DNA from: Vibrio pacinii DSM 19139
GTDB taxonomy: Bacteria; Pseudomonadota; Gammaproteobacteria; Enterobacterales; Vibrionaceae
DNA: 64,000 bases
Reading direction: 5' to 3'
Assembly: GCF_000711795.1 (NCBI RefSeq)
Contig: NZ_JONH01000005.1
Span: 248,001-312,000 of the forward strand
The notes beneath the pieces are model-generated. The model worked only from the letters and a program-made list of their open reading frames with translations. It was not told where the DNA came from and did not search any database. The translations under genes and the position numbers were made by a program. Below, in pieces: positions 46,690-51,178 of the stretch (the stretch's first letter is position 1; every line of letters begins with the position of its first letter).

Positions 46690-46818
46690 AGATCTTCCTT
46701 GTCGTAACAGTTCAAGTGATCCCACTATAGGGGATTTAAGTAGAAGATGAAAAGAGGCTTGTGCAACAAATTCGCAAAATGCTTAGGGTTGGCTAATACT
46801 CAATAGTGGAGGTGAACT

Positions 46819-47130
46819 ATGCAAAAAAGTCAGTTAGACAAATGGATCCATGGTCAACATAAGGAAAGTTATCAACCACCAAAGGTGTTTGTTATCAGCT
46901 GTTCTGACCTGTCACACTACTTGCTTGCGGTGGAGTACAAGCACAAACTCGAACCGATTCGAGTCGATGATAAACCCGTTCACTTTGAATCTCTAGAACG
47001 GGTCAAAGAAGAACTACAGCGTCTCGGTGTCGAGCGGGCATACCTAAGGCTGCATAACGCTTACGATGAGTGTGGGGCTAGCGATGGTCCGATGTTCCAT
47101 GATCTAGAATTGCCAATAACCACTCATTAA
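46819..47130 (+). CDS. Conserved hypothetical protein, 103 aa
   Basis: Small soluble protein, possibly of the DUF6482 group, begun with an excellent GGAGGTGA ribosome site. It has a charged, mixed alpha/beta pattern ([17 protein letters not shown], then [28 protein letters not shown]). No catalytic motif is evident. Its stop overlaps that of mutH by four bases through a shared TTAA. In vibrios such a gene is usual next to mutH. Confidence 0.75.
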
Positions 47131-47798
47131 ACAAAGTTTTGCTCTAATAGCTGCGCGGTGAATTGGGTTCTTAAATAGAACCCTCTTGGCAGCGTCTTTA
47201 TTGGTTTACCGCTCGCGCCATAAGCTTCAGTTAACACTCGGCCATTGGCCGCTTTTGGCCTCAATTGCATGACCTCACCGTGACGGGCGTTGATCTGTTC
47301 AACACGCCCAAGCACGATCATTTCCATTAACTCTTCCCAATCTGCTTTTAACTGCTGCTCTTGTTCTTGAGTGGGAGACCAAATAAGTGGAGAGCCAACA
47401 CATCGCTCTCCAAGAGGGATTTCTCGCTCTCCTTCGACTGGTACCCATAACACTCGAGACAGTTTATTGCGCACATGACTGGTTTCCCAAGTTAATCCGT
47501 GAACACCAATTAATGGCGCGACACAGACAAAGGTCGTTTCAAGGGGTTTACCACTGTAGCTGATAGGAATGGTCTTTAGTTCTATTCCGAGCTGTTCGAA
47601 ATCTTGCTGTGGTTTACTTCCTGCGCTCGCCCCTAAATGCCATTCAAGTAGCTGGCCCACCCAGCCTTTATCGCGGCGTAAATCGGGCGGGACATCAATT
47701 TTAGCTTCATCGGCGAGCTCTTGAAAGCTGATGCCAGCGATACTGTTCGCTCGTGTTAGTAGTTCTTGCTCTGATTGGGGTTCAGTCTTCATGATCAT
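47127..47798 (-). CDS. mutH: Mismatch-repair endonuclease MutH
   Basis: Protein of 223 residues with the D-(x)n-ExK nuclease motif seen as [14 protein letters not shown] near 63-76. It nicks the unmethylated strand at hemimethylated GATC after MutS/MutL activation. Its presence, with frequent GATC sites, implies a Dam system. The ATG at 47798 is preferred over one two codons later because the GAG upstream is at a better distance. Confidence 0.95.
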
Positions 47799-47897
47799 TG
47801 ATAACTCATAGTGCTGGCGCCTATTGTAACCTAACTTGAGTAAATATCGACTGAAGAGATATTGATCATAGTGGAGAAAAGATCATCAACCAGCGAC

Positions 47898-47906
47898 TTA
47901 TCCACA
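47898..47906 (+). promoter_or_regulatory. DnaA box (TTATCCACA)
   Basis: Exact R1-type DnaA-box consensus on the plus strand, about 100 bases upstream of the mutH start. Confidence 0.75.
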
Positions 47907-48015
47907 AGATAATGACGTTATAAAGGAAAAAAACCGAACATGTATGAATTAACAGTGGTTTTTGTAGTGAAAAGTGGTTGAAATTTCCATTTTAAGCTCA
48001 GGGTTGATGTGGTGG

Positions 48016-48024
48016 TGTGGATAA
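48016..48024 (-). promoter_or_regulatory. DnaA box (TTATCCACA, reverse)
   Basis: TGTGGATAA on the plus strand, the exact reverse complement of the consensus. Confidence 0.75.
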
Positions 48025-48206
48025 ATACAAGCGTGGTGGATCTTTGACCGATCTGTGGGTGGGGATTATTTCTGGTGATTTTTTGCCTGATGTTCATGAG
48101 GGTTTTACAATAACGTTATGAAAATAAAGTAAAAATAATAACCTTCTTGGTACAGTGTTAGAATTAAAAAAGAACGATGATGTTTAAATGATCAGTTGCG
48201 CGCGTA

Positions 48207-48227
48207 TTTTTCACATGGTTATACACA
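48207..48227 (+). promoter_or_regulatory. Tandem DnaA boxes (TTTTTCACA and TTATACACA)
   Basis: Two matches to TTWTNCACA in the same orientation start 12 bases apart (48207-48215 and 48219-48227), close enough for cooperative DnaA binding. Confidence 0.65.
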
Positions 48228-48274
48228 GAAAAGGTGAATAAATGTGGACTAGGTCTCATCCTTATGTGAGTAAC

Positions 48275-48287
48275 CAAGGTTTTGATT
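48275..48287 (-). promoter_or_regulatory. IHF-binding consensus match
   Basis: CAAGGTTTTGATT fits YAANNNNTTGATW, the reverse complement of WATCAANNNNTTR, at every fixed position. It sits between the tandem DnaA boxes and the box at 48366. Confidence 0.55.
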
Positions 48288-48365
48288 AAAAGTTATCCAT
48301 AATGGCTGTGTATAGTCATATTTTCTGTGTGAGTCACACTAGTAAGTTTGCTCATATTGGGGATA

Positions 48366-48374
48366 TGTGGAAAA
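48366..48374 (-). promoter_or_regulatory. DnaA box (TTTTCCACA, reverse)
   Basis: TGTGGAAAA on the plus strand, 36 bases before the rppH start codon. Confidence 0.55.
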
Positions 48375-48410
48375 ATCACTGTAATTAAAGATTTTATTAG
48401 AGGTTGGCCA

Positions 48411-48929
48411 GTGATAGATGGCGACGGTTACCGCTTAAATGTCGGTATTGTAATCTGTAACAGCCATGGTCAGGTCTTCTGGGCAAAACGATACGGACAA
48501 CACTCTTGGCAATTTCCCCAAGGTGGGATTGATGAGGGGGAAACCCCAGAACAGGCTATGTATAGGGAACTATATGAAGAAGTTGGCCTGACCAAAAAAG
48601 ACGTGAAAATCGTCGCGACAAGTCGTCACTGGTTAAGATATAAGTTACCAAAGCGCCTTGTTCGTTGGGATTCAAAACCGGTTTGTATTGGCCAAAAACA
48701 GAAATGGTTTCTATTGCGCTTGGATTGCGATGAATCTCGTATCAACATGCAGCGTGGTAATTCCCCTGAATTTGATGGTTGGCGTTGGGTAAGTTATTGG
48801 TATCCTGTCAGACAAGTGGTTTCTTTCAAGCGTGATGTGTACCGTCGAGCGATGAAAGAGTTTGCCTCAATGGCAATGCCATTCAAAGAACGCAGAACAA
48901 AAGGCAAACGTAAACACCGAAGAGGGTAG
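48411..48929 (+). CDS. rppH: RNA 5'-pyrophosphohydrolase RppH
   Basis: Nudix hydrolase of 172 residues that converts the 5' end of mRNA to a monophosphate and so starts RNase E decay. The Nudix box is [23 protein letters not shown] near 38-60. The start is GTG at 48411 ([17 protein letters not shown]), which aligns with E. coli and has AGAGG seven bases before; the frame reaching back to 48348 adds 21 residues without counterpart. The C-terminal tail is Arg/Lys-rich. It is followed two bases later by ptsP, as in E. coli. Confidence 0.95.
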
Positions 48930-48931
48930 AC

Positions 48932-51178
48932 ATGCTTTCTCAACTAAGGGAAATAGTTGAACAAGTTTCTAAGGTCGATGAAGTTCATCAGGCATTAGAC
49001 ATCTTGGTAAAACAAACATGCAGTGCGATGGACACTGAATGTTGTACTGTCTATTTAGCAAATGAAGAGATGCAGCGCCTAGAGTTAATGGCAACTCAGG
49101 GGCTGCGCTTTAAAGGCGACAAAATTCATATCGGCTTTAACGAAGGCTTAGTCGGCTTAGTTAAACGCAGCGCAGAGCCTCTTAATCTGGCCGAGGCCTC
49201 AAAACACCCAAACTTTAAGTACTTTTCTGTGCTAGGCGAAGAGCTTTATCAGAGCTTTTTAGGCACCCCCATCATTTATCGCAAGCAAGTGTTAGGTGTG
49301 TTGGTCGTCCAGCAAAAAACGCCGCGCCAGTTTAACGAGATGGAAGAGTCGTTTCTCGTCACTCTTGCCGCGCAATTGGCGGTTATTATTGCCCATGCGC
49401 AAACTCAAGGTCACTGGCGACTAGAAAAAAAACAGCAAGCGATTAAAGGTGTTCCTGCCTCATCTGGGGTCGCGATTGGCGAGTTGTGGTGGGACGATAC
49501 TCAACCCGATCTCGCCTATGTTTATCCTGCTTCTACCTTAGATGTTGAGCGTGAGCAAGAGTGGTTACTGCTGGCGATTGAAGAGGCGTTGGGTGATTTT
49601 CGTCGTATGCGGAAAAAACTCGATAGTGAAATCAACAAAGACGCGTTAGCGATATTTGATCTCTTTACTCACTTACTTAATGATCCTATGTTGCGTAAGG
49701 ATCTCAAAGCACAAATCCAGAAAGGCGATCGGGCAGATTGGGCACTCAGACAAGTCGTCGAGTCTTATTCGAACCGATTTGCGCGGATGTCCGATGTCTA
49801 TTTACGCGAACGAGCGCAAGATATCCGTGAACTTGGTCAGCGGTTACTTTTTTTCCTCCACAATACCGAACAAGATCGTCAGGTGCTCGATAAGCCAGTG
49901 ATCTTAGTCGTGCGTGAGCTCACGGCCTCACTGCTTGCGTCGGTCCCCAAAGACATGCTGTTAGCGGTGATTTCTCTTGAAGGGGCCGCTAACTCACACG
50001 CCGCGATTTTATCTCGTGCGTTAGGCATTCCTGCTGTTATGGGAGCCAATTTCAATCTTAAGGCAGTCAATGGTAAGCAAGGGATCGTTGATGGTTACAG
50101 CGGTAAAATCTTTGTTTCTCCAAGCCGTCAACTGTTACGTGAGTACCGCGCCTTAGCTGATGAAGAGCGAGATCTGGCGAACATGGTCAACTCTCGCATT
50201 GAGCAGCCAGCCTTCACTAAAGATGGCCAACGTATCGAAGTGATGCTCAATGCCGGGCTCAGCGCGGATACCAACATTGCCATTAACCTAGGGGTTGATG
50301 GGGTTGGGTTGTACCGTACCGAGATCTCTTTTTTACTTCAACATCGTTTTCCATCTGAAGAAGAACAAACACAGCAATATCAAGCCGTCCTGGGTAGCTA
50401 TCCGGACAAACGAGTGGTGATGCGTACCTTGGATGTCGGTGGTGATAAAGCGCTACCTTATTTGCCCATTGAAGAAGACAATCCGTTCTTAGGTTGGCGA
50501 GGCATTCGGTTCACCCTTGATCACCCTGACATCTTCCTGATGCAAATTCGCGCCATGATACGTGCCAGTGCTCAGCATCAAAATTTAAGTATCTTGTTGC
50601 CGATGGTCTCGGGAGCGCAAGAATTGGATGACGCCATCGAACTGATTGAAAGGGCTTATCATGAGGTCTCTGAGCAAGACTCACGAGTCAAAATGCCAGA
50701 GCTTGGCGTGATGATTGAAGTCCCTTCGATGATCTACTTGTTGCCGTTAATTGCCGATAAGGTCGATTTTGTCTCGATTGGGACCAATGATTTAACCCAG
50801 TACCTTCTCGCGGTTGACCGTAATAATGCCCGAGTGGCTGATGTCTATGAATCGTTGCATCCGTCTGTGATCATGGCACTGCGCCACATTCATCAGAGCT
50901 GCCAACAGCTCAATCTACCCGTTTGTATTTGTGGAGAGCTGGCCGGTGATCCTATCGGGGCACTGCTTATGGTCGGGCTTGGCTATCGTAGTTTAAGTAT
51001 GAACACTTCCAACGTAGCAAAGGTGAAATATTTACTGCGCCATACCGAAATCGACGAGCTACGCCAACTTGCTGACAAAGCACTGATGCAAGCTTACGGC
51101 AAGGGCATATATACTATGATGCAGTCATTTTTCGAAGATAAAGGCTTTGCGGGCTTTATTCGTGCGGGTAACAAATAA
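48932..51178 (+). CDS. ptsP: PEP-protein phosphotransferase of the nitrogen PTS (EI-Ntr)
   Basis: Cytoplasmic protein of 748 residues. An N-terminal GAF domain (about 15-160, senses glutamine/2-oxoglutarate in E. coli) is followed by the EI phosphohistidine domain with ANSHAAILSRALGIPAV (His near 356) and the PEP-binding domain with GVGLYRTEISFL, VMRTLDVGGDKALPYL and VSIGTNDLTQYLLAVDR. It passes phosphate from PEP to NPr. It shares an operon with rppH, with the TSUP gene 8 bases downstream. Confidence 0.96.
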   Translation: MLSQLREIVEQVSKVDEVHQALDILVKQTCSAMDTECCTVYLANEEMQRLELMATQGLRFKGDKIHIGFNEGLVGLVKRSAEPLNLAEASKHPNFKYFSVLGEELYQSFLGTPIIYRKQVLGVLVVQQKTPRQFNEMEESFLVTLAAQLAVIIAHAQTQGHWRLEKKQQAIKGVPASSGVAIGELWWDDTQPDLAYVYPASTLDVEREQEWLLLAIEEALGDFRRMRKKLDSEINKDALAIFDLFTHLLNDPMLRKDLKAQIQKGDRADWALRQVVESYSNRFARMSDVYLRERAQDIRELGQRLLFFLHNTEQDRQVLDKPVILVVRELTASLLASVPKDMLLAVISLEGAANSHAAILSRALGIPAVMGANFNLKAVNGKQGIVDGYSGKIFVSPSRQLLREYRALADEERDLANMVNSRIEQPAFTKDGQRIEVMLNAGLSADTNIAINLGVDGVGLYRTEISFLLQHRFPSEEEQTQQYQAVLGSYPDKRVVMRTLDVGGDKALPYLPIEEDNPFLGWRGIRFTLDHPDIFLMQIRAMIRASAQHQNLSILLPMVSGAQELDDAIELIERAYHEVSEQDSRVKMPELGVMIEVPSMIYLLPLIADKVDFVSIGTNDLTQYLLAVDRNNARVADVYESLHPSVIMALRHIHQSCQQLNLPVCICGELAGDPIGALLMVGLGYRSLSMNTSNVAKVKYLLRHTEIDELRQLADKALMQAYGKGIYTMMQSFFEDKGFAGFIRAGNK

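Follow-up and report, generated by a model that had tools for sequence, protein, structure and literature searches.

The closest described system is E. coli DARS2, which lies between mutH and rppH (gene order mutH, ygdT, rppH, ptsP). According to the available text of PMC8682772, ADP-DnaA on boxes I and II of this element meets head to head, ADP leaves and apo-DnaA then binds ATP again; the process needs both IHF and Fis, and ATP-DnaA on box V and its weak neighbours displaces Fis. The two IHF sites of DARS2, IBS1 and IBS2, lie in the interval from the core to the Fis sites; they are separated by three bases (PMC4245941, available part). A three-box core of equal spacing also occurs in E. coli DARS1, in the bioD–uvrB gap, while datA, considered here by its description, has an IHF site flanked by essential DnaA boxes and promotes hydrolysis of DnaA-bound ATP. 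DARS-like sequences have already been published for V. cholerae (available text of PMC6090056, where they are attributed to Fujimitsu 2009; legend of Fig. 8 in PMC8682772). Compared by these published descriptions, they belong to another species but share the localisation of the element reported here, and their DARS2 core and Fis-site region are homologous to those of E. coli.

A DARS2-type core between mutH and rppH

The 64-kb stretch of DNA analysed here (the window) contains a 612-base gap between divergently oriented mutH and rppH (Table 1). The identities of MutH, RppH and PtsP were upheld by family scans, and the GTG start of rppH was chosen from its likeness to E. coli. All seven DnaA boxes listed in an initial annotation of the window were recovered, comprising exact copies of TTATCCACA at 47898 (+) and 48016 (-), TTATACACA at 48219 (+), TTTTTCACA at 48207 (+) and TTTTCCACA at 48366 (-), together with one-mismatch boxes at 48293 (+) and 48307 (-), the last within a poorly conserved stretch of the gap. 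That inventory missed two further one-mismatch boxes, at 48233 (-, TTATTCACC) and 48265 (-, TTACTCACA), both of which are conserved. Five exact TTWTNCACA matches fall inside 477 bp of the gap, where 0.037 would be expected, out of nine in the entire window. Across the genome the motif occurs 335 times (169 + 166) per 4,304,676 bases versus 311 (157 + 154) for the reversed control, so the boxes are without genome-wide enrichment. At the genome rate, 612 bp would hold 0.048 boxes (Poisson P for at least five = 2e-9, or approximately 1e-5 scaled to the genome), in agreement with the earlier statement that the cluster exceeds chance (approximately 0.03 expected). No Rfam match to a structured RNA was found at E ≤ 1 across 46700–49000, a terminator scan returned none, and promoter-like matches numbered 3 versus 2.5 by chance.

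Table 1 Features of the mutH–rppH gap and its flanking genes, in window coordinates.
Feature	Coordinates	Strand	Remarks
mutH	47127..47798	-	NF003458, 381.9 bits (cut-off 243)
DnaA box, mutH side, TTATCCACA	47898..47906	+	Exact in 95/96 aligned gaps
DnaA box, TTATCCACA, putative counterpart of E. coli box V	48016..48024	-	Exact, at -190 to -195 from the core start
Conserved TGGTGGATCTTTGACCGATC adjoining box V, at the presumed E. coli FBS2-3 position	48034..48053	.	GATCTTT conserved
Degenerate IHF site, likely IBS position	48111..48123	-	TAACGTTATGAAA, 2 mismatches in the window
DARS core	48207..48241	+	Box III (+) 48207-48215, box II (+) 48219-48227, box I (-) 48233-48241
Weak DnaA box at +58	48265..48273	-	Within one mismatch
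IHF-like match AATCAAAACCTTG, from the initial annotation	48275..48287	-	Fits WATCAANNNNTTR; not conserved
DnaA box TTTTCCACA	48366..48374	-	36 bp before the rppH start; exact at the same column in 91/96 gaps
rppH	48411..48929	+	NF001934, 337.8 bits (cut-off 241)
ptsP	48932..51178	+	NF008283, 1240.3 bits (cut-off 583)

Three of these boxes form a core that reads TTTTTCACA-TGG-TTATACACA-GAAAA-GGTGAATAA, with boxes at offsets 0, 12 and 26 (mismatches 0, 0 and 1) and boxes I and II in opposing orientation. Box order, orientation and spacing are identical to those of E. coli DARS2. As box I has one mismatch on the minus strand, it is invisible to an exact scan. The core is the sole three-box match in the window at ≤4 mismatches, and none of 20 shuffled windows yielded one at ≤3. 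The corresponding stretch in E. coli strain KE55 reads TTTTTCACA-ACT-CTATCCACA-GAAAA-GGTGAATAA, while in MG1655 the first DARS2 box is TTCTTCACA; deletion primers for DARS2 boxes I–III border the KE55 core stretch in the mutH–rppH gap (PMC4585315, available part). A DNA similarity search against E. coli returned short matches in 45 of 5426 genomes, none with a coverage of 80%, and the best of these (a 40-base match over the core, in strain KE55, E = 0.7) indicated the right gap but is insufficient as evidence alone.

The relative distance from the origin is also stable, as is characteristic of DARS2. Measured from dnaA, the gap is 0.147–0.236 of chromosome 1 away (median 0.183; 43 genomes in which this chromosome is near-complete), compared with 0.206 from oriC in E. 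coli MG1655 (where 956,767 bp separate the starts of oriC and rppH). DARS1 occupies a different locus; upstream of uvrB, the present genome also carries a DARS1-like core, TAATACACA-CAC-TTATCCACA-AATTT-GGTGGATAA (L194, 510-544), with the same layout as TAATACACA-TGG-TTATCCACA-GGAAT-AGTGGATAA from the E. coli bioD–uvrB gap (L221). Judged by sequence, both DARS loci are present in this genome, consistent with the available text of PMC6090056.

Taken together, the shared gene gap, the order, orientation and spacing of the core, the outlying boxes and conservation described below, the origin distance and the V. cholerae reports indicate that the mutH–rppH gap very probably contains the Vibrio equivalent of E. 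coli DARS2, an element likely to regenerate initiation-competent ATP-DnaA. The element is a family member of the known DARS2 and not a new kind of site. The initial annotation knew of no site described at this position, a statement overtaken by E. coli DARS2 in the same gap and by the published V. cholerae sequences. The analysis gives the exact location of a known replication-timing element in this species and identifies the sites that are fixed across the genus.

Conservation of the core and outlying boxes

The survey covered 99 Vibrio genomes, an even sample of a larger group, represented by upstream DNA from 30 loci and 69 regions; RppH was found in all 99, and mutH lay upstream of rppH in 97 (one exception, L180, ends at a contig edge, and in the other, L155, no mutH match was accepted in the stretch fetched). 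A core, called at ≤4 mismatches to a degenerate pattern, was present in 97/99 genomes. It was absent from G026, a 1.0-Mb genome with a mutH–rppH gap of just 126 bp, while the copy in G058 has 6 mismatches, apparently shifted by a base, in a genome where the rppH match is in two pieces. A search for the DARS-core pattern in four genomes gave one site apiece, that of G026 lying away from mutH. Of 80 named loci, 22 from Vibrio or Vibrionales overlap the genus set and were kept outside the tally (core in 21/22, L003 being cut short by its contig); the tally itself comprised the other 58 together with E. coli KE55. In it, the core was present in 13/13 loci from other Vibrionaceae, 33/39 from Enterobacterales and 1/7 from Alteromonadales-type bacteria (Pseudoalteromonas, Rheinheimera and Aliidiomarina). 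The six Enterobacterales misses, from Providencia (3), Photorhabdus, Morganella and Proteus (L039, L043, L044, L048, L049 and L058), had no mutH detected upstream of rppH and no core within 900 bp, and the element may sit elsewhere in these genera. Given these six and 6/7 Alteromonadales-type loci without it, a core at the mutH–rppH position is not universal.

The outlying boxes also keep distances close to those of E. coli, with reversed-motif controls near zero in Vibrio (positions below are relative to the core start, 48207). TTATCCACA occurs at -303 to -314 in 95/97 Vibrio genomes with the core (E. coli -304; reversed control 0) and TGTGGATAA at -190 to -195 in 90/97 (E. coli -185; reversed control 0); the Vibrio outer boxes stand 5–10 bp further away than their E. 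coli equivalents. The box at 48016 would be the full-consensus box V counterpart, as judged from the available text of PMC8682772. Adjoining it, GATCTTT was found within -190..-140 in 91/97 Vibrio genomes, at the E. coli distance of 23 bp from the start of the box (control 0). The weak box at +57/+58 is present in 94/97 Vibrio and 33/33 Enterobacterales loci with the core (reversed control 2 and 0, respectively). All 33 of these Enterobacterales loci have both outer boxes, for the most part at -304 and -185 (the first of them scored 4 in its control), while among the 13 other Vibrionaceae loci the outer boxes were found in 8 and 4 and the +58 box in 10. In contrast to E. coli DARS2, the Vibrio element has an extra conserved box beside rppH (TGTGNAWAA, +157 to +160), found in 93/97 Vibrio genomes (reversed control 0) and 10/13 other Vibrionaceae loci versus 0/33 Enterobacterales loci with the core. 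The core and all four other boxes occur together in 85/97 Vibrio genomes. The best conserved stretches of the gap include the 47898 box, the core and the 48366 box. Conservation in relatives, which the initial annotation named as a test, is shown by the core and by the boxes at 47898, 48016 and 48366; the IHF site of that annotation is not conserved, and its 48307 box lies in a poorly conserved stretch.

IHF and Fis sites

The IHF and Fis sites are the weak part of the DARS2 case, and the weakness of both matches in the window is a difference from E. coli DARS2. The initial annotation reported a full IHF consensus at 48275-48287, which holds for WATCAANNNNTTR but falls one base short of the stricter TAAnnnnTTGATW used for DARS2 in the available text of PMC8682772. 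Among the 99 Vibrio genomes, this site is exact solely in the present one (G000, L082) and in G002 (L083). A more likely IBS position is 48111-48123, where an IHF site is exact in 20/96 and within one mismatch in 53/96 aligned gaps. By distance, a match within one mismatch was found at -97 to -95 in 51/97 Vibrio genomes (the window's own has 2 mismatches), and anywhere in -130..-40 in 67/97 Vibrio (control 17), 7/13 other Vibrionaceae (control 1) and only 9/33 Enterobacterales loci (control 5). As the Enterobacterales count differs little from its control, the consensus scan tests poorly for IHF sites and provides weak evidence either way. At locus L001, a spacing of exactly three bases separates two IHF matches of one mismatch each (2419-2431 and 2435-2447), which would correspond to IBS1-2, with 48111-48123 as their probable Vibrio counterpart. 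For Fis, the window match near 48035 has 2 mismatches, and a scan run without a control found matches with ≤1 mismatch in -200..-140 in 76/95 relatives, most often at -172 to -174; the E. coli match at -173 has one mismatch. For E. coli, the positions of the IBS, of the FBS and of box V used in these comparisons were assigned here from the texts of the cited papers.

Proposed function and alternative explanations

All activity of the element is proposed by analogy with E. coli. ADP-DnaA would bind the conserved three-box core, where the facing boxes I and II would bring two ADP-DnaA molecules head to head, so that ADP is loosened and leaves and ATP-DnaA is regenerated. If the E. coli scheme applies, the element would have IHF near 48111 and Fis near 48035 as its activators, and ATP-DnaA on the 48016 box would displace Fis and turn the site off. 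With its weak IHF and Fis matches, the element of this species may be activated less strongly or through other proteins. The additional rppH-side box is a candidate for linking rppH–ptsP transcription to DnaA.

The initial annotation favoured a datA-like site, at which IHF together with the DnaA boxes would stimulate the hydrolysis of ATP carried by DnaA, and offered a DARS element as the alternative. Several boxes accompany one IHF-like match here, and the weak boxes at 48265 and 48293 flank it, but an arrangement whose IHF site is exact in 2/99 genomes is not conserved, and the parts that are conserved agree with DARS2 in place and spacing. The datA identity was rejected on these grounds and is very unlikely, while the broader suggestion of a locus that switches DnaA survives as the DARS2 reading. 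The same annotation also suggested that the site might titrate DnaA or regulate its neighbours. A locus that only holds DnaA, or only regulates mutH and rppH–ptsP, with the bound nucleotide unchanged, would account for the conserved Vibrionaceae box just before rppH and for an outer box 100 bp from mutH, and the E. coli mutH promoter was originally found as a DnaA-binding fragment (PMC5835720, available part). However, this leaves unexplained a fixed three-box core common to DARS1 and the Enterobacterales; as the sole function it is improbable, though such a role may be additional to DARS2. The prospect that the boxes are a chance cluster in an AT-rich spacer is negligible. Neither the window nor the genome shows an excess of TTWTNCACA over expectation, as a chance origin would have it, but the Poisson probability given above stands against this, and conservation across families already refutes it.

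Hda in the Vibrionaceae

Across 121 Vibrionaceae genomes (13 genera), a query with E. coli Hda returned a single match at 27–31% identity, in frames of 311–512 residues, in 120, and these matches are read as DnaA; this search thus detected no hda in 120/121 genomes, including the present one. The remaining genome, G126, has a second match at 58% identity that is named Hda by NCBIfam, and the same query recovered Hda-sized proteins at 33–84% identity in 22/24 genomes from other families of the order. With TIGR03420, no match in G000 or G026 exceeded the cut-off. Known Hda proteins score 76–79 bits with the DnaA model TIGR00362; in 43 Vibrio genomes this model found, besides DnaA, nothing above 50.6 bits, and the match at that score was the second part of a split DnaA. 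PF00308, which overlooked a tblastn-found Hda in G099, detects Hda weakly and did not serve as proof that the gene is absent. In G126, the hda gene is flanked by DUF2066 and DUF2069 genes near upp–uraA, while in G129 a distance of 61 bases separates these two genes and the stretch gave no Hda match (loci L219 and L220). The genes beside upp in G000 and G081 differ from those of G126, so no empty hda site is demonstrated in those two genomes. The absence of Hda is therefore apparent from sequence searches, and an unrelated substitute is conceivable.

Many bacteria are without Hda and SeqA homologs (PMC6784150, available part), and Table 1 of PMC3290774 (available part) assigns Hda to the alpha-, beta- and gamma-proteobacteria. 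No statement that Vibrionaceae lack Hda was found in the available parts of PMC3937223, PMC4468827, PMC3290774, PMC5872114, PMC3141006 and PMC6784150, most subscription literature lying outside the search. In E. coli, hda mutants over-initiate, and their lethality is suppressed by deleting DARS elements, above all DARS2 (PMC5835720, available part). With no Hda detected, the DnaA nucleotide cycle of the Vibrionaceae may differ from that of E. coli, and the apparent retention of DARS2 by bacteria that seem to lack canonical RIDA is possibly a new observation. What restrains ATP-DnaA in two-chromosome bacteria that keep DARS2 with no detected Hda is a direct, testable question. One tentative, rather speculative answer is an Hda-free DnaA cycle in the Vibrionaceae, in which hda and canonical RIDA would have been lost and DARS2 (here also DARS1) kept against an unnamed ATP-hydrolysis brake, with the rppH-side box tying RNA decapping and PtsP to the state of DnaA.

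Additional conserved sequences

Along with the apparent lack of Hda, the rppH-side box is worth following. A search combining rppH, DnaA box and Vibrio found no paper on the subject, most subscription literature lying outside its range, and the conservation of a DnaA box immediately before rppH is possibly a newly described trait of the Vibrionaceae. The strongly conserved stretch before rppH that includes this box (48340-48410) occurs in Vibrio and most other Vibrionaceae loci and in no Enterobacterales loci, and is perhaps a DnaA-controlled rppH–ptsP promoter. Elsewhere in the gap, 47939-47961 is a moderately conserved block with the genus consensus ATGGATNAATAAACAGGGGTTTT. The DARS-like three-box core of G026 (L176, L181), which presumably adjoins ribosomal protein genes, has one mismatch, and 20 random 1-Mb sequences of the same GC content contained 0 such matches.
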